From a virus: 49,172 bases of DNA. Made by a program: the position numbers and the translations under genes. This document shows positions 1 to 16,860 of the stretch, piece by piece. Positions within the stretch are counted from its first letter, which is position 1; each line of letters starts with the position of its first letter. The stretch spans positions 1 to 49,172 of the IMG/VR virus record IMGVR_UViG_3300010354_006498. One strand, written 5' to 3'. The notes beneath the pieces are model-generated. The model did not search any database, had not been told where the DNA came from, and saw only the letters and a program-made list of their open reading frames with translations.

Positions 1-779
1 CCAATGTTTTCTTCTAACCAGAACCACATTTTTTTATCCCAAAACTCATTACAATCAAACGGTACTGAATAATCCACCATCATATCGTCAAAAGCAAATG
101 GCGATTTATAAATGTGAATATTATTATTACCACCTGCTCCGTTTTGTTCTAATATTTTTCTTGTTGATTTTATCGATGACATTGTAATGCCATGAACCTG
201 CCGTCTGTTACTAACAACATCTCGCCAATCTGTATAATGTAAGAATGAATTTATAAGTCCAGAACACGTTACACCACTACCCATAGAAACAACTAAGTGG
301 TCAAAGTCATTATCTTTCAACACTTCTTTCATTCTACTTCCCATGTAGTTAATATACATTGGGTGGTTGAATGCATACGGTAACATTTGCCAACCATTCT
401 CTGTTGCTTGTTTCTTTACACGATTGTTAAGTATTGCCATTATGTTTGGTTTGAGTGGATTTAATTTTCCACCATTCCCCAATACTTTTTCAATTAAGTT
501 TGGAGGAAACTTCTTTGTTTCTGGATAAGAAGAAATAAATTCTATACCTTCTTCTTTACAAAGTCCAGATAAAACCCAACCTGTCCAACTTCCGTATACT
601 GAAAGGTGTGTTAGTGGTTTACTTTTATCTACCGCTGGACTTCTTAGAATCTGTCTAATTCCTTCTATCTTTGCCCACCTTGGATAATTTATTCCATCAC
701 CAACTAAATCATCACGTTTAACCCAAACTTTTTTTCCTTTGAGTTCATATTCCTCAATCGGTGTTTGTATTAAATCCAT
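1..779 (-). CDS. Fold-type II PLP-dependent enzyme homologue (ACC deaminase / D-cysteine desulfhydrase-like), partial
   Basis: The gene begins with ATG at 779 and runs off the left edge, leaving 259 visible residues. It resembles the ACC deaminase/D-cysteine desulfhydrase family: a VWVKRDDL motif (residues 18-25) sits near the N-terminus and a phosphate-cup-like loop SMGSGVTCSGL lies mid-protein. Aligned without gaps from KRDD, the family motif GGNK-x-R-K-L-E becomes NYPR-W-A-K-I-E. The lysine that normally forms the Schiff base is therefore Arg34, while the second lysine (Lys37) is kept. The usual S-N-H substrate motif is also not evident. The enzyme may use different chemistry or have lost PLP catalysis. 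Its start overlaps the end of the amidotransferase gene by 10 bases, so the two are translationally coupled and probably act in one pathway. The substrate cannot be read from sequence. Confidence 0.72.
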   Translation of the reverse strand, partial: MDLIQTPIEEYELKGKKVWVKRDDLVGDGINYPRWAKIEGIRQILRSPAVDKSKPLTHLSVYGSWTGWVLSGLCKEEGIEFISSYPETKKFPPNLIEKVLGNGGKLNPLKPNIMAILNNRVKKQATENGWQMLPYAFNHPMYINYMGSRMKEVLKDNDFDHLVVSMGSGVTCSGLINSFLHYTDWRDVVSNRRQVHGITMSSIKSTRKILEQNGAGGNNNIHIYKSPFAFDDMMVDYSVPFDCNEFWDKKMWFWLEENI

Positions 780-2275
780 TTGAATATTCCACTATTGTTG
801 CCAATAAGTTCGCCCTTCATCTTTTTATGTGAGAATCCATGAATCTTTTCAAAGTTATCACCAATTACATGAAGCATCTTTTTTCTATTACGAAAGTTTA
901 TTTCTTTATCATTTAAAATAATATCTTCAATAAACCCTTTGAAGTTTGTACCTTTTTGAAAAGCACGTTTTTCTTGTTCAATAACTTCTTTAGGTAAGTA
1001 CGGTCTGAATGCATCTGCAAGTGGAAGTTTCCATTGCGATTTATCAGATAAAAATTCGTTGGTTAAGTTAGTAGTGTAATCTAAAAAATCAATATCGAAA
1101 AATGGGCAACGTAATTCTATTGTTCCATAATACATAAAAATAGTATTACCGCGTAACAAATTACCGTAGTATTGTTTTTCAAATAGTTTTTTCCTAATAT
1201 CCGACCAATCTGGTTTCTTACTAAACATCCGTATCATTCCATAAGAACCATACGCTTCATCAGAACCTTCACCACTAAAAGCAACTTTTATTCCATCCTT
1301 TGCCATTTGTTCTGCAATAAAAGATTGTAGAACACCAACTTGCATTTGAACAGTCGATGGGTATTCAATAACTTTAATAGATTCTAAAAATCTTTGTTTC
1401 AATAACTCCACGTTTCTTGGAACTGAAACTTCTACTAATTGAACACCTAAATGATTCGCAACCATTCTTGCGTATTTTAAGTCAGGTGAATCTTCATCGA
1501 AAGCAATTGTATATGCTTTTAAGTTCGGTATCTTAGTGGATAATAAATACGTTATAACAGCGGAATCAATCCCACCAGACAACGAAGTTGCAATAGGTAC
1601 ATCAGACAACAATCGTTTACTTACCGCGTTCTCCAGCAGGTTATAGGTGGCTATGGCGCATTCTTCATGTGTTTCAGGTGAAGTAACTTTGTTTGAAAAG
1701 TTCCAATAGTAATCTTTGTGAACTACTATTTTATCCGTGCTTACATCTATTTCTACTAAAGAATTCTTTGGTACAAACTTAATTTCAGCGTTTGGTAATT
1801 GTTCAACAATAGATTTTATTTCACTTGCTATAATGTAAGTGTTGTTATTGAAAATATATAAAGGAAGTTTACCAACCCAATCACGTGAAAGAATTAACTT
1901 ACCATTATCCCAAATAACGAAAGAAAACATACCGTTGAGTCTTTTCAATTCTTTTTCTTTATATACAAATAATATAAGTTCTGAATCTGAATTCGACTTA
2001 AAAGAATATCCTCTTTCTTCGTATTCTTTTCTTAGTTGTGGGTAATTCCATATTTCACCGTTAGCTACTAAGTGAATACCTTCCCACTCCATAGGTTGAT
2101 TCCCTGCAGCAGAAGTATCGTTAATTGCAAGGCGATTATGTCCAAGTATAACTTTTCTATCACCCCAAGAAAATTCTTGAATACCGCGGTTATCTTTACC
2201 ACGGTGAGCGATGGTTTCCAACATATTATCAACATCGGTTTTTGTATAACCGACCGTTGCTATTATACCACACAT
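770..2275 (-). CDS. Glutamine-hydrolysing asparagine synthase-type amidotransferase
   Basis: A 501-aa AsnB-type enzyme. The N-terminal glutaminase domain starts MCGII, so Cys2 is the nucleophile after Met removal; HNRLAI and NGEIWN match the glutamine-binding segments. The C-terminal synthetase domain has the ATP-binding PP-loop SGGIDSA and the motif FSGEGSDEAYG. Both halves look catalytically intact. Family members move glutamine ammonia onto an AMP-activated carboxylate; besides free aspartate the substrate may be a sugar, peptide or nucleotide adduct. The gene starts one base after the stop of the thymidylate synthase-like gene and overlaps the PLP-like gene by 10 bases. That packing argues for a shared biosynthetic role rather than housekeeping asparagine synthesis, which is my inference. 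The family call is firm; the substrate is unknown. Confidence 0.9.
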   Translation of the reverse strand: MCGIIATVGYTKTDVDNMLETIAHRGKDNRGIQEFSWGDRKVILGHNRLAINDTSAAGNQPMEWEGIHLVANGEIWNYPQLRKEYEERGYSFKSNSDSELILFVYKEKELKRLNGMFSFVIWDNGKLILSRDWVGKLPLYIFNNNTYIIASEIKSIVEQLPNAEIKFVPKNSLVEIDVSTDKIVVHKDYYWNFSNKVTSPETHEECAIATYNLLENAVSKRLLSDVPIATSLSGGIDSAVITYLLSTKIPNLKAYTIAFDEDSPDLKYARMVANHLGVQLVEVSVPRNVELLKQRFLESIKVIEYPSTVQMQVGVLQSFIAEQMAKDGIKVAFSGEGSDEAYGSYGMIRMFSKKPDWSDIRKKLFEKQYYGNLLRGNTIFMYYGTIELRCPFFDIDFLDYTTNLTNEFLSDKSQWKLPLADAFRPYLPKEVIEQEKRAFQKGTNFKGFIEDIILNDKEINFRNRKKMLHVIGDNFEKIHGFSHKKMKGELIGNNSGIFKWI

Positions 2276-2276
2276 A

Positions 2277-2975
2277 TTATTTATTGAGTATGTTTAACAA
2301 TTCTTTTGTTTTTTTCAATTCGTTGTTCATTTTACCGATGTGGCAAGAACAAGCCAGTACACTAACCTTTCCCAATTCTAATCCACTTTCTTTTGCTAAA
2401 AACTTACCCATACTAACTAAAGCAGAATAATCAGCGTAACCACTCTTAGAAACTCTATTGGAACGTAGAACAGAAGTTAAATACAACTTACCGTTGCGAG
2501 GTTTTAAGTCAATCATCAACATACAAGGTTGAGAATAAGGATTTCGTGAATCACGTGATGGGTCAAATATAATTAACTCACAACGTTTAACCGCTTTACC
2601 TTGCTTCAAAATTTTAATAACATTTTCAACTTGATTGAATGTACCTTGCCAACTAACCATTCTTCCCCAATAGGACTGATGCCAATGGTCTTTAATGAAC
2701 TGATATTCTAATCCTTCTTCTGCTTGAAAGAAATCGTTAATTGGTTTCTTAGGTTGGGGTTCTACAAACGTAACAGATGAAGCAAAATCAATTCTATCAT
2801 CGCCCATTATTTCTCTGAAGTGTGAATCAAACCAATCGTCACTTTGAAATTCTGTAATTTCCATCATTACATTTAATTCTTCGATTAATTCACCGACCTT
2901 TTCTCCCCGCTCTAATAAATGTTTGGAAACTTTTACCCAAGCATCGCCAGGAGAAACCGCTTCTATAACTGTCAT
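2277..2975 (-). CDS. Thymidylate synthase-superfamily enzyme, dCMP-type (possible dCMP hydroxymethylase or methylase)
   Basis: A 232-aa protein whose C-terminal half matches the TS fold. QPCMLMIDLK carries the nucleophile Cys151. RSN (171-173) corresponds to the phosphate-binding Arg-Ser of TS, and SCHIG (210-214) to the conserved His near the end. Counting without gaps from that Arg, the position that is Asn177 in E. coli TS is Asp182. Asn binds the uracil ring in TS, whereas T4 dCMP hydroxymethylase has Asp there, so the predicted substrate is dCMP or another cytosine nucleotide. The length is close to T4 gp42 (246 aa). Other TS residues are not kept: Arg174 replaces Asp169 and Gly214 replaces the terminal Tyr, so folate use and the exact reaction are uncertain. 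The SD-like GGTGA precedes ATG. It lies 9 bases after thioredoxin and 1 base before the amidotransferase. Confidence 0.75.
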   Translation of the reverse strand: MTVIEAVSPGDAWVKVSKHLLERGEKVGELIEELNVMMEITEFQSDDWFDSHFREIMGDDRIDFASSVTFVEPQPKKPINDFFQAEEGLEYQFIKDHWHQSYWGRMVSWQGTFNQVENVIKILKQGKAVKRCELIIFDPSRDSRNPYSQPCMLMIDLKPRNGKLYLTSVLRSNRVSKSGYADYSALVSMGKFLAKESGLELGKVSVLACSCHIGKMNNELKKTKELLNILNK

Positions 2976-2984
2976 ATATCACCA

Positions 2985-3242
2985 TTATAAATTTTCAATT
3001 GCAATTTCGTAATTTCTTTTAGAAACTAAACCAGTAATTCTATTTGCTTCAACGCCATTTTTCATAAATATCACAGTTGGTACTCCACGAACACCCCATT
3101 TTGCTGCATCTATTGGGTCATTATCAACATCAATAACTGTATATTGAATCGTTGGATTTTCTTGAATAATCGCTTGCATAATAGGTTTAAGTTGTTTACA
3201 TGGCATACACCACGACGCTGTGTAATGTTTAATGGTAATCAT
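2985..3242 (-). CDS. Thioredoxin
   Basis: An 85-aa single-domain thioredoxin. The redox motif WCMPC is at residues 12-16 and the cis-proline loop GVPT lies in the second half, both at the usual places. It is shorter than E. coli thioredoxin (109 aa), as is common for phage thioredoxins and glutaredoxins. An AAGGA ribosome binding site precedes the ATG. It is the first gene of the left-edge cassette, so it may reduce an enzyme of that pathway. It may also regenerate the class II ribonucleotide reductase encoded about 5 kb upstream, whose C-terminal cysteine pair needs an external dithiol. A TATAAATA box lies 25 bases ahead of the start. Confidence 0.92.
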   Translation of the reverse strand: MITIKHYTASWCMPCKQLKPIMQAIIQENPTIQYTVIDVDNDPIDAAKWGVRGVPTVIFMKNGVEANRITGLVSKRNYEIAIENL

Positions 3243-3266
3243 ATCCGTCCTTAGATGAAAATAAAT

Positions 3267-3274
3267 TATTTATA
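3267..3274 (-). promoter_or_regulatory. T4-type late promoter box (TATAAATA)
   Basis: Read on the minus strand this is an exact TATAAATA, the consensus -10 of T4 late promoters. It lies in the 61-base gap between the large structural gene and thioredoxin, 24 bases ahead of the thioredoxin ATG. It is the only intergenic copy I found in this orientation. In AT-rich DNA an 8-mer can arise by chance, so confidence is modest. Confidence 0.35.
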
Positions 3275-3303: not shown

Positions 3304-6003
3304 CTATACATCTTGTTTAGCCATCTTTATTTTTATAAATAAATCATCATCGTGTTCTTTCTTTATAGGTTTATTAAATTTAGCAACTGCTATTAAATCT
3401 TTATCGTCATTATATAAACCAACAGTTGTAACATAAGTTATCGGTTGCTCAGACATACAATCGTATTTTAATCTACCAATTGAGTTTACGGCACTTGGGT
3501 TATTTGTGTAAGTTGCTTCCGATGCAGGTACTCTAACTATATAATGTGAAACACCTCGTTCTTTTACTTTTCTAGCTCTTATTGAATATCCAAGAGAAGC
3601 AGCACCACTTATTGCTGTAAATATCTTTAATGAATTATCACCGTCTATATTAGAACCACTCACACTATTGAATGATAGTTCTTCATTCAATCTATTACCA
3701 TTTAATACAATCAACCCAAGAGTTGGATAAACTTTACCATATGTTGTGTATTGTGCATTTGTAGTAATACTACCCGTGCCTGTGTTGTAAATTCCACGAA
3801 TCAATGAACCACTTACTAAGTCATAAGAAGCATACGGATCTTCTTTACAATTTGATTCATTTATATATTCAGAATTATCTACTAAACTTATAATCTTATT
3901 TGAAGAGCTTGGTTGAACATTACTGCCAGTATAATACCTGTTTGGATAAGCAGTTCCGTTTAGTTCCTGTAATGATATTTCAAAATTACCTGGATCTATT
4001 CTATCACCGTATGATTCACGATAAAAATTTATATTGTAAATATCCTTTGGTGTTTCTATACTTCCTGTATAATAAAAACTAAAGTTTGTTTCTGGTGATT
4101 CAAGCGCCATTAATCTATACTTACTGTATATTACTTTTGATGGTGATTTATATTCATATTGTGAATCGTATGTTGAACCAGAACCCTCAGCATTTCCATA
4201 AGAAACGGTAAAGTAAGAACTACTACCACACGTATTACAACCAGTAATATTATAATAATAATCATTAGAACCAGTTTGAATTGAATTAGTTACATAGCAA
4301 TCAACTGATTCTTCTGCACTAAACATTCCACCAACTACACTTTGTATATTTCCAACTATAATATCACTATCTAAAATCTTATGATAAGTAAAATCTGTTC
4401 TTTCAATCAACGGCTTATCTTTACATTTCTCAACTCTTTCTATTCTTGAAACTATTGGAGTAAGTCCAGCGGGTGGAATTGTAAAAATAGTAGAGCCATC
4501 TGTTCTTATCCTTGATTCATAATCAGCATAAATAGCAGGTGGTGTTGACTCTGGACAAATTTCATAAATCTCTGAGCGGGTTATTTGTCTACAACCACAG
4601 TCTGTTCTTTGTTCTTCGTATGGTTCTTTTATAACTCTGACGCGTAAACATTCACAATCTGGTAAATCTTTGTTAACTCTTTGTGCTTCCCAATCGATAA
4701 CCGTACCTTCTTCTATTTCAATACTAGAAGAAAATTGCATTGCAGGAGCACCGGCTGAGTCAGAAAAACAAGGTTGTTCCCTTTCAAAATAAACAATGAA
4801 TTCTTCATTCAAACTATACTCAGTTCTAAGTCCTTCAAAGCATCTTCTATATGGAACTGCTTCTATTCTTCTATTATCTATAAACATCCTCATACCAACT
4901 TCAAGTGGTGCGTCTGGTGTATTGACTGGTATTGGAAAGTATGTTCTAAAAAGAAAGCCTTTTGGTTTTACATCAACTGTACGTATACCAGACACAGCTG
5001 CTAAACTCTTGTTCTTAATATTAAAATTTAATCTTGGAACATCTGGTTCTACTATTTGAAATAAACCTATTGCAGGTTTGCCAGAAATGTTTTGACCTGT
5101 TTCAAATTCCTTTACACTCTTGTGTGTTAAATTTAATCCAGTACCAAATGGATCACGATATAAACTTTTTTTCCTTATTTCTTCTGAGGTTGTTTCTATT
5201 TTGTTAGCATCTAAATATTTCAATGACCCATCAATACCTACTTCCACATAACACTCACCACCGTTTATAGTGTATATAAGCGGTTCTTTCCACATACCGA
5301 GTGGATTGGCTGAAATTATTGAGTTTATTCCAGGAGTTGAATAAAGACTGGCAACAAAATTTAAGTTCTCACTAAATAGAACGGATTGCCCACTTTGTGT
5401 AATAGTAAACACATTATTTCTTTTTTCTGCTGCTCCACCATAACCATCGTCTATTATAGTATCAGTTATATATTCCGTAGTCTTTGTTTCGTTTGTGGTA
5501 GTATCAAGCCAATCAATCATTATTTTCAATTCAGGATATGGCCAAGTACCTAAAAACCAAACATAACCGTTTGGTGCAATAGTATAATGAACGCCTTCAT
5601 CCAACGGTAATTGACGATAATTATCAATTATCATAATTTTATATATCTTGGCTGTTTCTTTTGCAAAATCTTCAACTAATACATTTCGAGAAGTACCGCG
5701 TATTCTTGCATTTTCTCTATCGTATATAAATCTTAATCTGTATTTATAAAATCCAACTGGTCTATATTTCAAAACATCTTTGGTAAATTCTCTATCAACT
5801 TCTTTCCATCTTGTATTTTCACAAAAAGGTAAAGTTATATTATAAACATCTACTAGTTCACCTTTATCATTAAGTGCTTGCATACCAGAGAAAACAGGAT
5901 CACCATATTCAATTCCATTCCAAATAATAGCACCATTTTCATCTTGTACTAAATCTTCTTGTTGAATAGTAACACCATTTAAGTATGTAACATTTCTTCT
6001 CAT
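3304..6003 (-). CDS. Large putative virion structural protein
   Basis: About 899 aa from ATG 6003; a GTG two codons upstream (6009) is an alternative start. No enzymatic motif is visible. The protein is rich in Tyr, Ser, Gly and Asn and in beta-type sequence. The middle holds cysteine clusters (CECLRV, CGCRQ, CNTCG), unusual for a phage surface protein, which could form disulfides or bind metal. The C-terminal segment YVTTVGLYNDDKDLIAVAKF resembles C-termini I recall from structural proteins of marine T4-like phages. It lies at the end of the small-gene block, well away from the baseplate genes. A tail-fibre-associated or head-decoration role is possible. Function is not established from sequence. 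Confidence 0.55.
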   Translation of the reverse strand: MRRNVTYLNGVTIQQEDLVQDENGAIIWNGIEYGDPVFSGMQALNDKGELVDVYNITLPFCENTRWKEVDREFTKDVLKYRPVGFYKYRLRFIYDRENARIRGTSRNVLVEDFAKETAKIYKIMIIDNYRQLPLDEGVHYTIAPNGYVWFLGTWPYPELKIMIDWLDTTTNETKTTEYITDTIIDDGYGGAAEKRNNVFTITQSGQSVLFSENLNFVASLYSTPGINSIISANPLGMWKEPLIYTINGGECYVEVGIDGSLKYLDANKIETTSEEIRKKSLYRDPFGTGLNLTHKSVKEFETGQNISGKPAIGLFQIVEPDVPRLNFNIKNKSLAAVSGIRTVDVKPKGFLFRTYFPIPVNTPDAPLEVGMRMFIDNRRIEAVPYRRCFEGLRTEYSLNEEFIVYFEREQPCFSDSAGAPAMQFSSSIEIEEGTVIDWEAQRVNKDLPDCECLRVRVIKEPYEEQRTDCGCRQITRSEIYEICPESTPPAIYADYESRIRTDGSTIFTIPPAGLTPIVSRIERVEKCKDKPLIERTDFTYHKILDSDIIVGNIQSVVGGMFSAEESVDCYVTNSIQTGSNDYYYNITGCNTCGSSSYFTVSYGNAEGSGSTYDSQYEYKSPSKVIYSKYRLMALESPETNFSFYYTGSIETPKDIYNINFYRESYGDRIDPGNFEISLQELNGTAYPNRYYTGSNVQPSSSNKIISLVDNSEYINESNCKEDPYASYDLVSGSLIRGIYNTGTGSITTNAQYTTYGKVYPTLGLIVLNGNRLNEELSFNSVSGSNIDGDNSLKIFTAISGAASLGYSIRARKVKERGVSHYIVRVPASEATYTNNPSAVNSIGRLKYDCMSEQPITYVTTVGLYNDDKDLIAVAKFNKPIKKEHDDDLFIKIKMAKQDV

Positions 6004-6025
6004 AACCACCTATAATTGAATTGAA

Positions 6026-6379
6026 TTAACCGATTGCAGAATATATTACACCGAATTCTTGTGAACTAAATTTTTCTTTTGCTGCAGATAATAAAACATT
6101 TTTAATTTCTGTGATGTATTGATCAACAAAATAATGTGAGCCTTCTTCTGCTTTTACGATTTCTTTTACTGCTTCTAATACTTTTTGGTATTTTTTATCA
6201 CCAACTAATTTTGCAAGTTCAATAAGTCCTGATACCATGTCTTTATCTTCCTCACAGCACTTAATCATTTTCTTAGCAGAAGTTTCTACTTTTTTATCAA
6301 TGCCTTCTACTTCTTCACGAATTTTTTTTAATACATCACCTGCTTCGTTTAACAGTTGTTTTCTTGATGATATGTTCAT
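6026..6379 (-). CDS. Small helical protein with N-terminal NE tag (paralogue of the gene at 7700-8059)
   Basis: A 117-aa, charged, mostly helical protein with a clear AGGAG site 9 bases before ATG. It begins with RKQLLNEAG (residues 6-14), which fits a T4-type prohead protease site after Glu12. The C-terminal half resembles the 119-aa protein encoded at 7700-8059: both share K-x-Q-x-VL, a central AEGS or AEEGS, and a final E-[FY]...I segment. The pair therefore looks like a duplication that kept both the tag and the body. No known domain is recognised. A head-packaged internal protein is my favoured reading, on the basis of the tag alone. Confidence 0.6.
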   Translation of the reverse strand: MNISSRKQLLNEAGDVLKKIREEVEGIDKKVETSAKKMIKCCEEDKDMVSGLIELAKLVGDKKYQKVLEAVKEIVKAEEGSHYFVDQYITEIKNVLLSAAKEKFSSQEFGVIYSAIG

Positions 6380-6382
6380 TTT

Positions 6383-6589
6383 TTAACTCCTACGAGATAA
6401 GATAAAATATAGTCCAAAAAATAATAGAGCTACCGAATAAAATATAATATCGGTAAGTATGTAACTCTCTGTAAATTTCATCACTAAAGCAAATGCCGCA
6501 TCGAATCCAAGAGGATTGAAGAATGTCCCAAGCACTAAACATATTTTTGCCAATACATTTCTGTATTCTCTTTGTTTTTTTTCTGACAT
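6383..6589 (-). CDS. Small membrane protein, two predicted transmembrane helices
   Basis: A 68-aa protein with a basic N-terminus (SEKKQREYR) and two hydrophobic stretches, roughly residues 13-38 and 42-63, ending in Arg-Arg-Ser. This topology fits a small holin-like or other inner-membrane phage protein. No lytic enzyme is visible next to it, so a lysis role is only a possibility. It follows HSP20 after a strong terminator and a promoter-like box, and precedes a tagged small gene by 3 bases. The ribosome binding site is weak (GGCGGA close to ATG); an overlapping 70-aa frame starting 13 bases earlier looks less protein-like. Confidence 0.5.
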   Translation of the reverse strand: MSEKKQREYRNVLAKICLVLGTFFNPLGFDAAFALVMKFTESYILTDIIFYSVALLFFGLYFILSRRS

Positions 6590-6638
6590 TCCGCCATCCC
6601 ATTTATAGTTGCCTTGATGTGATAAATACTATTGTACT

Positions 6639-6647
6639 TATAAATAT
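6639..6647 (-). promoter_or_regulatory. Promoter-like box (ATATTTATA)
   Basis: One of 12 intergenic copies of an ATATTTAT core on the coding strand. It lies just after the HSP20 terminator and about 50 bases before the small membrane protein gene. Confidence 0.45.
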
Positions 6648-6662
6648 GGGATAAATAAAAAA

Positions 6663-6682
6663 GGGTGATGTTTCCACCACCC
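6663..6682 (-). terminator. Intrinsic terminator after the HSP20 gene
   Basis: Read on the minus strand the hairpin has an 8-bp stem GGGTGGTG / CATCACCC (one G-T pair) with a GAAA tetraloop, followed by TTTTTTATTT. It lies 19 bases after the HSP20 stop codon. Confidence 0.85.
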
Positions 6683-6700
6683 CTAATACAGCATCTAATT

Positions 6701-7090
6701 TTATTTAATTTTAATAGTTACTTCTTCTGGCTCAATGGGTTTAACCATTGGAACGGAAACATGAAGAATACCATTCTCAACCGAAGCAGTTATTGCTTTA
6801 GCATCGTATGGTTTTGCTAGTTCATAATTCAATTTAATAGTTTTTTCACCAATAAATTGATTTACCGCTTTTCTTTTCCCTTCAATACGAAGTAATTTAC
6901 CTTTTACAGAAACACTAATTTCTTCTTTTGAGAAGCCAGGAACTTCTGCGTAAATGTCCAATGAATCTTCACCATGAAATAACTTATAACCTTCTGGTTT
7001 AGTTTGATGGTAAATTCTCGGAACTGATAAACTGTTCATTAATTCATTAAACAAATCATTTTCTTTTTTAAGAATTGAATTGGTTAACAT
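6701..7090 (-). CDS. Small heat shock protein (HSP20 / alpha-crystallin family)
   Basis: A 129-aa sHSP. The alpha-crystallin domain covers about residues 40-129: LDIYAEVPGFSKEEISVSV matches the family's A.lPG.....i.V signature, and VENGILHVSVP is the A.(L/V)xNGxLxxxxP hallmark. The C-terminus EVTIKIK holds an I-x-I-type motif for oligomer contacts. Such proteins are common in T4-like cyanophages and are thought to act as ATP-independent holdases during infection. The AGGAGG site is the strongest in the window, and a terminator follows, which together suggest high expression. Confidence 0.93.
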   Translation of the reverse strand: MLTNSILKKENDLFNELMNSLSVPRIYHQTKPEGYKLFHGEDSLDIYAEVPGFSKEEISVSVKGKLLRIEGKRKAVNQFIGEKTIKLNYELAKPYDAKAITASVENGILHVSVPMVKPIEPEEVTIKIK

Positions 7091-15203: not shown

Positions 15204-15893
15204 TTATTGTTTAGGAACAAGTAATTTAATGTCTATTCCTGTTTGTTTCTTTAATGCTTGTTCTGCTGCCTTAACATCATTGTTACTTGCTTTTAATGCT
15301 TCAACCGCCATCTTACTTGTGCCAGGTAAATCTACTATATTAATTGGCTTAATATCACCAAAATCTTCAAAATTTTTGAAAGAACCGTACCCAAATTTAA
15401 ACTTTTTAAGTGATGATGGAAGACCTTTTAAAGATTTTAAATTATCACATTGAGCTACTTCTACCTCACCGCCACCTTCAAGATTAATTGAAAAACCCTC
15501 AAAACTAACTAAATCACATTTTTCAATTAAAACTTTAGCACATATTTTTGGCCATCTTTCTAATTTGAAAAGAGTTGGTTGTCCTGTAATATTTTTTATA
15601 TGTAAAGTTCCATTATCTAAAATTTTATTAACTGCAAGTGCTAAACCTTTTTTGTCAGCGTCCATCCATTCTTTAGTACCATCTACCCAAAAGTTTTTAC
15701 TCACGTCAACAGTTCCGTCTGATTTCTTTAATACCTTTTCTCTATCAAGTTCAAACTGCTTTACCAAAGCGGTAAAGTCCTCTGAATCTTTGAACACATC
15801 TTTTATTTTATCAAAAAACCCCTCGTTAACTTTTTTCAAAAAAGTCTCTTGGATTCTTCTTCCTTCGTTTACCAAGTCTTTTTGCTTTTTCAT
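15204..15893 (-). CDS. Nested in-frame product with its own start and NE tag (229 aa)
   Basis: Within the 442-aa frame, codon 214 is an ATG preceded by AAGGAG with 8 bases between, an ideal ribosome binding site. The product would begin MKKQKDLVNEGRRIQ, with the tag in the same N-terminal place as in MRDLVNEGRELQ from the gene at 7700-8059. The tag is therefore more convincing as a true N-terminus here than as an internal site of the long protein. Nested in-frame genes are known among phage head proteins, such as lambda Nu3 within C. The remainder contains KVNEGFF and the leucine-rich-like C-terminus. The long and short forms may both be made. Confidence 0.55.
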   Translation of the reverse strand: MKKQKDLVNEGRRIQETFLKKVNEGFFDKIKDVFKDSEDFTALVKQFELDREKVLKKSDGTVDVSKNFWVDGTKEWMDADKKGLALAVNKILDNGTLHIKNITGQPTLFKLERWPKICAKVLIEKCDLVSFEGFSINLEGGGEVEVAQCDNLKSLKGLPSSLKKFKFGYGSFKNFEDFGDIKPINIVDLPGTSKMAVEALKASNNDVKAAEQALKKQTGIDIKLLVPKQ

Positions 15894-16532
15894 TTTAGAA
15901 ACTCCTTCATTTCTGTTATACTTACTAATAATGTTAGTTCTTATAATTTCTTTTATTTTCTTACGTAACTTATTTTTCAACCGTTCATTAACCTTTATCT
16001 CAGTTTTTGGTTCTTCTGCCGGTTCTGGTGTTTCAGCTGCAGCCATTTGTTCCAAATCTGATTTTATTGATGAAGATATATTATTACCAATTGAAGCTAA
16101 ACTTGTTGATAATTTACCAACAAGTTCTTTTTCTTGTTTTGTAAGACGCCCTTTTATAAATAAGCCAACTTTACCCAAGAGTTTCTCTATATCTTTATCC
16201 CTATCGCTTTCATTTGTTTCACCAGTTGATACTGTTTTTAATTTATCAATGGAACTATATAATTTTTTTAGTATTGGATTTCCCATAAATCGCGAAGAAA
16301 CCGCTTTGAACGCTTCTTCATTTTCTGTGTAAGCCTCTTCAGATTTTACTTTACCAAACCATTTTGCAATACGCTCAGGTGCTTTCGATGAAAACATAGA
16401 ACTCAACAAACCATTTCCTTTTGAAAGGAAACTTGCAATATCTATAAAAACAATATAACTCATAGGACTTATATTGGCTAAAGAAACATCTTCATTAATA
16501 CGTACTGATTTTTTTGGATTAATTTTTTTCAT
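15204..16532 (-). CDS. Tagged precursor-like protein of unknown function, 442 aa
   Basis: The protein starts MKKINPKKSVRINEDVSL, with an NE tag ending at Glu14. Residues 15-170 are largely helical and pass through an acidic, Ala/Pro/Glu-rich linker. Near residues 180-245 come further candidate cleavage sites: KVNE, DLVNEG and KVNEGFF. The C-terminal 180 residues hold a leucine-rich-like stretch (VLIEKCDLVSFEGF, LKSLKGLPSSLKKF), which suggests a short solenoid. The KVNEGFF-D-x-x-K junction resembles the junctions in the two paralogues at 43639-46247 (LSEGFF, LNEGF). An internal start at 15893 with a strong ribosome binding site would produce the C-terminal half alone. It may be a polyprotein-like head precursor. 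No enzymatic motif is visible. Confidence 0.6.
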   Translation of the reverse strand: MKKINPKKSVRINEDVSLANISPMSYIVFIDIASFLSKGNGLLSSMFSSKAPERIAKWFGKVKSEEAYTENEEAFKAVSSRFMGNPILKKLYSSIDKLKTVSTGETNESDRDKDIEKLLGKVGLFIKGRLTKQEKELVGKLSTSLASIGNNISSSIKSDLEQMAAAETPEPAEEPKTEIKVNERLKNKLRKKIKEIIRTNIISKYNRNEGVSKMKKQKDLVNEGRRIQETFLKKVNEGFFDKIKDVFKDSEDFTALVKQFELDREKVLKKSDGTVDVSKNFWVDGTKEWMDADKKGLALAVNKILDNGTLHIKNITGQPTLFKLERWPKICAKVLIEKCDLVSFEGFSINLEGGGEVEVAQCDNLKSLKGLPSSLKKFKFGYGSFKNFEDFGDIKPINIVDLPGTSKMAVEALKASNNDVKAAEQALKKQTGIDIKLLVPKQ

Positions 16533-16542
16533 ATAATGTCTC

Positions 16543-16860
16543 TTATGGCATAAGTGTTATGTTTAATGTTTTTTGAACTAAATAAAGACTTATACTTGTT
16601 TTTTTGTTAAAAAAGTGTAGTTTGTTTCCCATTGGTTTTTTATACTCATATCCAATTTTTTTCAATGCATCAACTATTTCATGTTCTTTGTATTGACTTG
16701 CATCAATAACATTATTTGGAAGCATAGAAATTTTATTCAATTCTTTTCTAAGAGTATTGAATATAATATCAAAACCGCTTGATTCTAATAAATTCATTCT
16801 TTCATTGAGTTTTTCAATTACATATTTCGTCATTACTTCTACAAACTTTTCTTTTTTCAT
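16543..16860 (-). CDS. Unknown small protein, 105 aa
   Basis: A charged protein starting at ATG with AGAAG upstream. The N-terminal helix contains EKLNE at residues 16-20, which weakly resembles the NE tag. The C-terminal half, with a Gly-Tyr-Glu-Tyr-Lys stretch, aromatic residues and a final beta-rich segment, could be a small alpha/beta domain. It lies 10 bases before the tagged 442-aa gene, so the two are probably co-transcribed. No family is recognised. Confidence 0.45.
   Translation of the reverse strand: MKKEKFVEVMTKYVIEKLNERMNLLESSGFDIIFNTLRKELNKISMLPNNVIDASQYKEHEIVDALKKIGYEYKKPMGNKLHFFNKKTSISLYLVQKTLNITLMP

Follow-up and report, generated by a model that had tools for sequence, protein, structure and literature searches.

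The viral contig IMGVR_UViG_3300010354_006498 of IMG/VR was analyzed over its whole length of 49,172 bases, referred to here as the window. Three genes between positions 3 and 2975 probably constitute a phage cassette for hypermodification of a DNA base, with C5 of cytosine as the most likely site. They encode a protein of the thymidylate synthase (TS) superfamily (TS-like), an asparagine synthetase-like amide ligase (AsnB-like), and a pyridoxal 5'-phosphate (PLP) enzyme of fold-type II. An initial annotation of this DNA had proposed cytosine hypermodification with an amide or amine group, and three independent homologies are consistent with that proposal. The reading is favored because the PLP enzyme leads to the cluster of Pseudomonas phage M6, the ligase leads to AsnB proteins linked to C5-methylase and CmoA-like genes as well as to the ligase CmoY, and the TS-like protein leads to enzymes acting on deoxycytidine or cytidine monophosphate (dCMP or CMP). 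Homology and synteny give good support to a base-modification pathway, and cytosine as the modified base is moderately supported; the side-chain chemistry, cofactor, and order of steps are put forward tentatively.

The gene set recurs in other phages. A scan of viral contigs with the TS-like protein returned 46 loci at 76-97% identity. A ligase is encoded downstream in all 45 informative loci (39 of the AsnB type and six of a 308-residue type; L022, which ends after the TS gene, was left out). It adjoins or is fused to the TS-like protein in 41 of the 45, and open reading frames (ORFs) of at least 50 codons intervene in four (L010, L011, L044, and L045). The initial annotation had suggested looking for the same gene order elsewhere, and a PLP gene indeed follows the ligase in 42 of 42 loci long enough to show one, L022, L032, L033, and L045 ending before that point. 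The genes are coupled by a 1-base gap or a 4-base overlap and then mostly by a 10-base overlap. A second group of loci, with TS at about 50% identity, mostly has the same order and is preceded by a methylase-like gene. Because the order recurs in 42 loci and in this second group, the grouping exceeds chance. Literature searches on the gene set found no description of the combination. The four-gene cassette originally pictured also included thioredoxin (Trx). Its TS-like, amidotransferase, and PLP members are conserved, whereas Trx was ruled out as a member. Of the 45 loci in which TS is a separate gene, just 8 have Trx immediately ahead of it (counting ORFs of at least 50 codons); in many other loci Trx is directly downstream of a ribonucleotide reductase (RNR) gene. 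The conserved unit is three genes.

The TS-like protein has features of enzymes that act on dCMP. Seven residues are the same in the window protein and in all 48 distinct relatives aligned with it: Cys151 (the candidate nucleophile), Arg171, Ser172, Lys177, Tyr180, Asp182, and His212. Asp182 corresponds to E. coli position 177 (numbering by eye), where the alignment with MilA and AfhB is ungapped, and T4 gp42 likewise has Asp at that position (by eye). Asp at this site favors dCMP, and the site has been examined for modified phage contigs (PMC8670742). The protein therefore carries both the catalytic Cys and the Asp that mark dCMP-specific members of the superfamily. The Asp conserved in thymidylate synthases at E. 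coli position 169 is Arg in the window, Arg or Ala in relatives, and Asn in AfhB. Family models match weakly (Pfam thymidylate synthase, 2e-6; TIGR03283, 2e-20, below the model cut-off). The AlphaFold2 (AF2) model (mean predicted confidence, pLDDT, 89.5) is closest to 9iqu (Z 20.6), titled as the dCMP hydroxylase AfhB of phage HY126, to 9iqc (Z 20.1), titled as a riboflavin-dependent monooxygenase with dCMP and FAD, and to MilA (20.1), three matches that are tied, with thymidylate synthases at about 18. MilA is also the top-scoring solved relative by sequence. These comparisons suggest that the TS-like protein is slightly nearer to dCMP- and CMP-modifying enzymes than to thymidylate synthases. 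A 5-hydroxy-dCMP synthase has been described within the superfamily (PMC13390438), so a nonmethylating dCMP enzyme with this fold was already known in phages. Synthesis of thymidine monophosphate (dTMP) looks separate where large records were checked. ThyX was found in G001, ThyA in G005, G006, and G009, and a ThyA fragment in G008; among four large records examined for both enzymes, three have one and the fourth has the ThyA fragment. In cultured phages nattely and ATCCB, the TS relative is adjacent to, or one gene from, an annotated beta-glucosyltransferase gene. Of the TS matches in the cultured phage collection, the one with the longest coverage is 24% identical.

The ligase has the domains of a glutamine-dependent amide-forming enzyme (GATase_7, 6e-32; Asn_synthase, 2e-41). 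Its glutaminase residues Cys2, Arg48, Asn72, Glu74, and Asp97 are present, as is the ATP-pyrophosphatase motif SGGIDS. In the 52 type I/II sequences aligned besides the window, Cys2 is found in 48 (three gaps and one Leu), and Asn72, Glu74, and Asp97 are found in all. The type I/II set combines the window with sequences obtained in the PLP and AsnB scans and does not use L002-L047 as a set, and ORFs of at most 430 residues and repeated identical sequences were left out of the motif and tree analyses. The window protein reads Q310-x-Q312-x-G314, a version of the pattern Q-x-[EQ]-x-G common to AsnBs linked to C5-methylases. Q310-x-[EQ]312-x-G314 occurs in 53 of 53 type I/II rows and in both C5-methylase-linked rows, and the Gly is missing from all 77 bacterial rows, which were drawn from the 80 kept out of 189 relatives in a scan of genome contigs. 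None of the bacterial relatives listed exceeds 34% identity. A tree built from 160 sequences places in one group (support 0.995) the phage AsnBs of cassette types I to V, both AsnBs linked to C5-methylases, and one AsnB from a Streptomyces genome; the other 76 of the 77 bacterial AsnBs and Motura gp025 fall outside. The E. coli AsnB stretch TTIRAS, whose Arg has a role at the aspartate site, is TVQMQV in the window, in columns that also vary among the 77 sampled bacterial proteins.

The genes around related ligases point the same way. The best match in cultured phages, TurkishDelight gp124 (32%), is flanked by a C5-cytosine methylase (TIGR00675, 1e-48) and a CmoA-like protein (TIGR00740, 2.6e-25, below the cut-off), and all three of these genes have relatives in viral contig L247. 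In 79 of 80 viral AsnB loci, the best kept from 201 relatives, a TS-like, PLP, GNAT-like, C5-methylase, radical S-adenosylmethionine (SAM), or TSPPYF gene is at most five genes away. The initial annotation had held that relatives beside surface-polysaccharide genes would contradict a modification role; none appeared among the labeled genes of these 80 loci, in which glycan genes were not systematically labeled. A distant AsnB-like gene of Achromobacter phage Motura (L113:8001-9281) lies within a 7-deazaguanine cluster (QueD, QueC, QueE, and transglycosylase, as annotated), making this the third kind of DNA-modification cluster with an AsnB-type ligase.

Replacement of the ligase in place gives a hint of what the other two enzymes make. 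In L028, L029, L034, L042, L043, and L047, AsnB is replaced by a 308-residue protein of the ATP-pyrophosphatase type that lacks a glutaminase domain. This protein is related to CmoY of Synechococcus phage S-B43 (tblastn, 2e-5) and to a gene of Staphylococcus phage F1 (6e-13), the latter flanked, according to the annotation, by genes for a methyltransferase-domain protein and a DNA cytosine methyltransferase. Across five pairs, in which four swap loci were compared with the AsnB-type loci L030 and L039, TS is 90-94% and PLP 85-92% identical; two AsnB-type pairs compared for reference are lower (TS 77-78%, PLP 48-71%). Given this similarity of TS and PLP across the swap, they probably make one product that is capped by differing ligases. 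Relatives of the 308-residue ligase annotated as asparagine synthase also occur in Erwinia phage Y3 (L341) and Salmonella phage Sen-NF (L343), near an annotated oxygenase gene and not adjoining a cytosine methyltransferase gene.

The PLP enzyme matches PALP at 2e-4, below the cut-off, and PHROG_7093 at 9e-22. Its full-length homologue in phage M6 is gp052 (27% identity; tblastn, 2e-15), which places it in the PHROG_7093/M6 gp052 type. The neighbors of gp052 are gp051 (Pfam ADDT) and gp053 (a weak radical SAM match), and nearby are gp054 and gp055, of the two 5-hydroxymethyldeoxyuridine (5-hmdU) kinase families HMUDK_hel and HMUDK_HMUD1, and gp058 (TS). Among cultured phages, 62 records matched the gene, all below 60% identity, including 52 from Pseudomonas and eight from Bordetella. 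SN1 is among the matches, and its M6-like thymidine cassette includes a PLP enzyme (PMC9476957). The AF2 model of the L117 copy (pLDDT 92.9) has a fold of the D-cysteine desulfhydrase/1-aminocyclopropane-1-carboxylate (ACC) deaminase type, with a best structural match at Z 24.9 and a root-mean-square deviation of 2.8 over 265 residues; a PDB profile search with the sequence gave no matches. Lys37, in the motif W[AGS]K, is invariant in 34 aligned relatives and is the candidate Schiff-base lysine, so PLP is probably bound. Fold and conserved Lys together place the protein in fold-type II. An apparent loss of the lysine in an alignment to ACC deaminase made by eye was removed by the M6 alignment (SFSKIRG) and the invariance of Lys37.

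Sister cassettes vary the set of partners. Within five genes of the 80 PLP loci kept as the best of 165 relatives, a TS-like gene is found in 37 and a D-2-hydroxyacid dehydrogenase gene in 28. Within the same distance of the 80 AsnB loci, TS-like genes are found in 58, PLP in 59, GNAT-like genes in 15, and a CmoA-like gene plus a C5-methylase in one. A TS-like gene was not found in 10 of 10 dehydrogenase-type records tested, and neither TS-like nor PLP was found in seven of seven AsnB records without PLP that were tested (six GNAT-type and one C5-methylase type). Where the TS-like gene is missing, the chemical handle need not derive from it. The combination of PLP, D-2-hydroxyacid dehydrogenase, and AsnB without TS-like occurs as type III in L164-L167, L170, L171, L173, L175-L177, L182-L185, L191, and L192 and as type IV in L180, L181, and L187; in L168, L169, L172, L174, L188, L190, and L193, PLP and the dehydrogenase occur together and the stretch covered shows no AsnB. 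In L244-L246 and L248-L259, a 485-residue AsnB is followed by a GNAT-like protein of about 175-190 residues and TSPPYF methylase-like genes. This GNAT-type AsnB often occupies the slot between RNR/Trx and DNA polymerase that the TS-AsnB-PLP cassette uses in other phages. Radical SAM genes were present in 6 of 12 records, generally elsewhere than at the cassette. A separate radical SAM family of 447-473 residues lies in or beside the cassette at L036:4224-5624, L160:2-298 (partial), L161:2447-3868, L232:4966-6309, and L233:8991-10352; L232 and L233 belong to the more distant TS-like loci of the 50% identity group.

These observations allow us to propose a sequence of steps. The TS-like enzyme would act on dCMP through Cys addition and place a functional handle on C5, which would enter DNA as a modified nucleotide or be completed on DNA. 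The PLP enzyme would then reshape an amino-acid-type side chain on C5, as is believed for its M6 homologue. By analogy with its relatives, the AsnB-like ligase would adenylate the side-chain carboxylate with ATP and join ammonia from glutamine to give a carboxamide; in sister cassettes, the CmoY-like ligase without glutaminase in the same slot would join another amine. With a polar group projecting into the major groove, the DNA would be a poorer substrate for restriction enzymes and similar nucleases, and the purpose is probably to hide phage DNA from bacterial defenses. A more specific version, which is conceivable but doubtful, is that the TS-like enzyme no longer uses folate and, either by itself or together with the PLP enzyme, makes a C-C bond that places a carboxylate-bearing side chain (an amino, keto, or hydroxy acid) directly on C5 of dCMP. 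In that case DNA would acquire a carboxylate handle by a second route, one that does not depend on SAM. Interchangeable ligases would cap that carboxylate with ammonia or other amines, and sister cassettes that include a 2-hydroxyacid dehydrogenase would adjust the same acid among its keto, hydroxy, and amino forms.

Several points weigh against a cytosine-modifying cassette of this kind. In all of these phages the modification is predicted from genes, and the reading requires the TS-like enzyme to yield a carboxylate by some route. The M6 PLP enzyme reportedly decarboxylates a base-linked amino acid. A decarboxylase of that sort would remove the carboxylate that the ligase requires unless the side chain has two acids; the PLP enzyme might instead carry out another reaction or act on the donor. 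The ligase scores 288 bits against the NCBIfam asparagine synthase model TIGR01536 (cut-off 267.1), and its residue match to CmoY falls within a poorly aligning stretch. AfhB and MilA are tied in the fold comparison with the TS-like protein, and for most of the smaller records a second thymidylate synthase was either not looked for or not detected. PLP and AsnB occur without TS-like beside the D-2-hydroxyacid dehydrogenase, and AsnB occurs beside the GNAT-like protein without either. L232 and L233 combine TS-like, AsnB, and radical SAM with no PLP gene found by tblastn in the stretch covered, and the gene order of L232 differs from the standard cassette.

Other functions for the three genes were weighed on the same evidence. 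They could serve auxiliary metabolism, with the TS-like protein making a normal nucleotide, AsnB making asparagine, and the PLP enzyme acting as a threonine dehydratase or D-cysteine desulfhydrase on host amino acids. The TIGR01536 score above cut-off, the PALP match, and the D-cysteine desulfhydrase fold are as this would predict, but we consider it unlikely: a separate ThyA or ThyX is encoded in three of the four large records, a CmoY-like ligase takes the AsnB slot in place, AsnB groups with modification-linked AsnBs, and the stretch aligned with TTIRAS differs, variable though it is among bacterial AsnBs as well. It is quite unlikely that the modified nucleotide or nucleoside stays free and outside DNA, serving as an inhibitor or signal, in the way that MilA starts mildiomycin. 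MilA is the best solved relative of the TS-like protein by sequence and near the top by fold; against this, many type I loci have the cassette close to DNA polymerase and methylase-like genes, and relatives of the ligase and PLP enzyme act on, or cluster for, DNA-base modification (PMC12783734; PMC9476957).

A division of labor, with RNA or a different base as the target of the ligase and PLP enzyme (for example tRNA, or adenine together with the TSPPYF methylase-like protein) and a separate cytosine modification carried out by the TS-like enzyme, is very doubtful. In 29 of 45 loci a TSPPYF methylase-like gene lies at most six genes from TS, and types III to V have AsnB but no TS-like gene, yet TS-like, ligase, and PLP are tightly coupled whereas the position of the methylase-like gene varies. 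An M6-type thymidine route, with a hydroxymethylase acting on deoxyuridine monophosphate (dUMP), a base kinase, an amino acid:DNA transferase, a radical SAM isomerase, and a PLP decarboxylase, is highly improbable even though the PLP enzyme is homologous to gp052 and a radical SAM family is linked to the cassette in the five loci given above. Pfam ADDT and HMUDK_hel (the pair PF18723/PF18724) were each found in 0 of 34 records, which are possibly incomplete; HMUDK_HMUD1 (PF18748) was found in 0 of 15 IMG/VR records, 12 of them with the TS cassette, in a search that detected M6 itself as positive control; M6 gp053 had no match among the collected ORFs at E 1e-5; and the TS-like protein has the dCMP-type Asp. 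Kinases were among the genes that the initial annotation had suggested looking for; the M6-type 5-hmdU DNA kinase was not found in the possibly incomplete records searched, nor was the amino acid:DNA transferase. A T4-type glucosylated hydroxymethylcytosine system was likewise not supported: at 1e-3, phmmer matched none of T4 gp42, gp56, and alpha- and beta-glucosyltransferase to ORFs of the window or of the four large records.

The coordinates of the genes are collected in Table 1. The window is the entire IMG/VR record and not a slice of it, and base 1 is therefore a contig end. The PLP gene lacks about 20 codons as a result, compared with 279 residues in a 98% identical relative. The spacing given in the initial annotation, 9 bases between Trx and TS-like, 1 base between TS-like and AsnB-like, and a 10-base overlap of AsnB-like with PLP-like, was exact on recheck, as was the gene order. 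A DNA search of the whole window against cultured phages gave one short match.

Table 1. Genes at the left end of the window
Gene product	Coordinates	Strand	Remarks
PLP-like, fold-type II enzyme	3..779	-	C-terminus cut by contig end; 259 residues present
AsnB-like amide ligase, 501 residues	770..2275	-	Class II glutaminase and ATP-pyrophosphatase domains
TS-like, TS-superfamily enzyme, 232 residues	2277..2975	-	Pfam TS, TIGR03283, AF2 model
Trx, thioredoxin	2985..3242	-	Pfam 2e-15; neighbor, outside the conserved cassette

Beyond the point that corresponds to position 1, where the initial annotation had suggested looking for kinases, aGPT-Pplase, and glycosyltransferases, the three close relatives L002-L004 show dUTPase, small genes, a TSPPYF methylase-like gene, and DNA polymerase. 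The TSPPYF genes often occur in more than one copy per locus (L002:12867-14027; L018:441-1493 and 5529-6761; L030:11000-12271 and 15620-16696). The L002 copy reaches the cut-off of Pfam N6_N4_Mtase, and matches are weaker or absent in the other copies tested. In L014, L015, and L018:6766-7938, a 390-residue ABC-ATPase plus GNAT-like protein immediately precedes TS. In L046:8001-10133, TS-like and AsnB are fused in one 710-residue frame without the junction, including AsnB Cys2, and RNR in that locus is split across several frames. In L230:5547-7001, a 484-residue ORF joins TS-like in frame to an N-terminal part that resembles a homing endonuclease by eye.

The two closest described systems are those of S-B43 and M6. 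In S-B43, CmoX makes 5-carboxymethylcytosine with a cofactor supplied by CmoA, and CmoY, a homologue of asparagine synthetase, ligates glycine to 5-carboxymethylcytosine in DNA (PMC12783734). The same source describes a second ligase cluster with a glutaminase domain and proposes that it uses ammonia; TurkishDelight gp124 presumably belongs to that cluster. Its main text mentions neither thymidylate synthase nor PLP. With phmmer and three CmoX-type queries, no match to CmoX was found at E 0.05 in G001, G005, G008, G009, and the window ORFs, and three CmoA queries against the same five ORF sets gave one weak match (0.003), in G001 and away from the cassette. CmoX and CmoA were thus not found encoded with the ligase in the four large records and the window, which may be incomplete. 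Because the core enzymes searched for were not found, the cassette is outside the CmoA-CmoX-CmoY system and outside the M6 pathway as each is defined, and it resembles parts of both in its working.

Like the S-B43 system, the cassette pairs an amide ligase of the asparagine synthetase type, with or without glutaminase, with an enzyme directed at cytosine C5 in a phage cluster; its AsnB groups with AsnBs beside C5-methylase and CmoA-like genes, and its alternative ligase is related to CmoY. Unlike that system, it has TS-superfamily and PLP enzymes in place of CmoX and CmoA. With M6, whose product is 5-(2-aminoethyl)deoxyuridine, it shares a TS-family enzyme and a homologous fold-type II PLP enzyme; it differs in the presence of an amide ligase and in a TS-like protein of the dCMP type, and the 5-hmdU kinase and amino acid:DNA transferase were not detected. 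The TS-like protein resembles T4 gp42, MilA, and AfhB in its catalytic Cys and the Asp at the cytosine-determining site, and MilA and AfhB also in fold, although it is only about 19% identical to the latter two in structural alignment. It departs from dCMP and CMP enzymes of the superfamily in having Arg or Ala at E. coli position 169 and in having a ligase and a PLP enzyme, not a glycosyltransferase, as neighbors. A dCMP enzyme with altered cofactor-site residues may widen the known scope of the thymidylate synthase fold. The ligase is like glutamine-hydrolyzing AsnB in domain order, glutaminase residues, and family model, and unlike E. coli AsnB in reading TVQMQV for TTIRAS and in its modification-type neighbors at nearly all of the kept viral loci. 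The cassette predicts DNA bases for which the literature searches made found no description, and the in-place ligase swap makes the choice of added amine directly testable. Amino-acid side chains of the M6 type and amide ligation of the CmoY type, described separately so far, would here be united in a compact cassette of many uncultivated phages.

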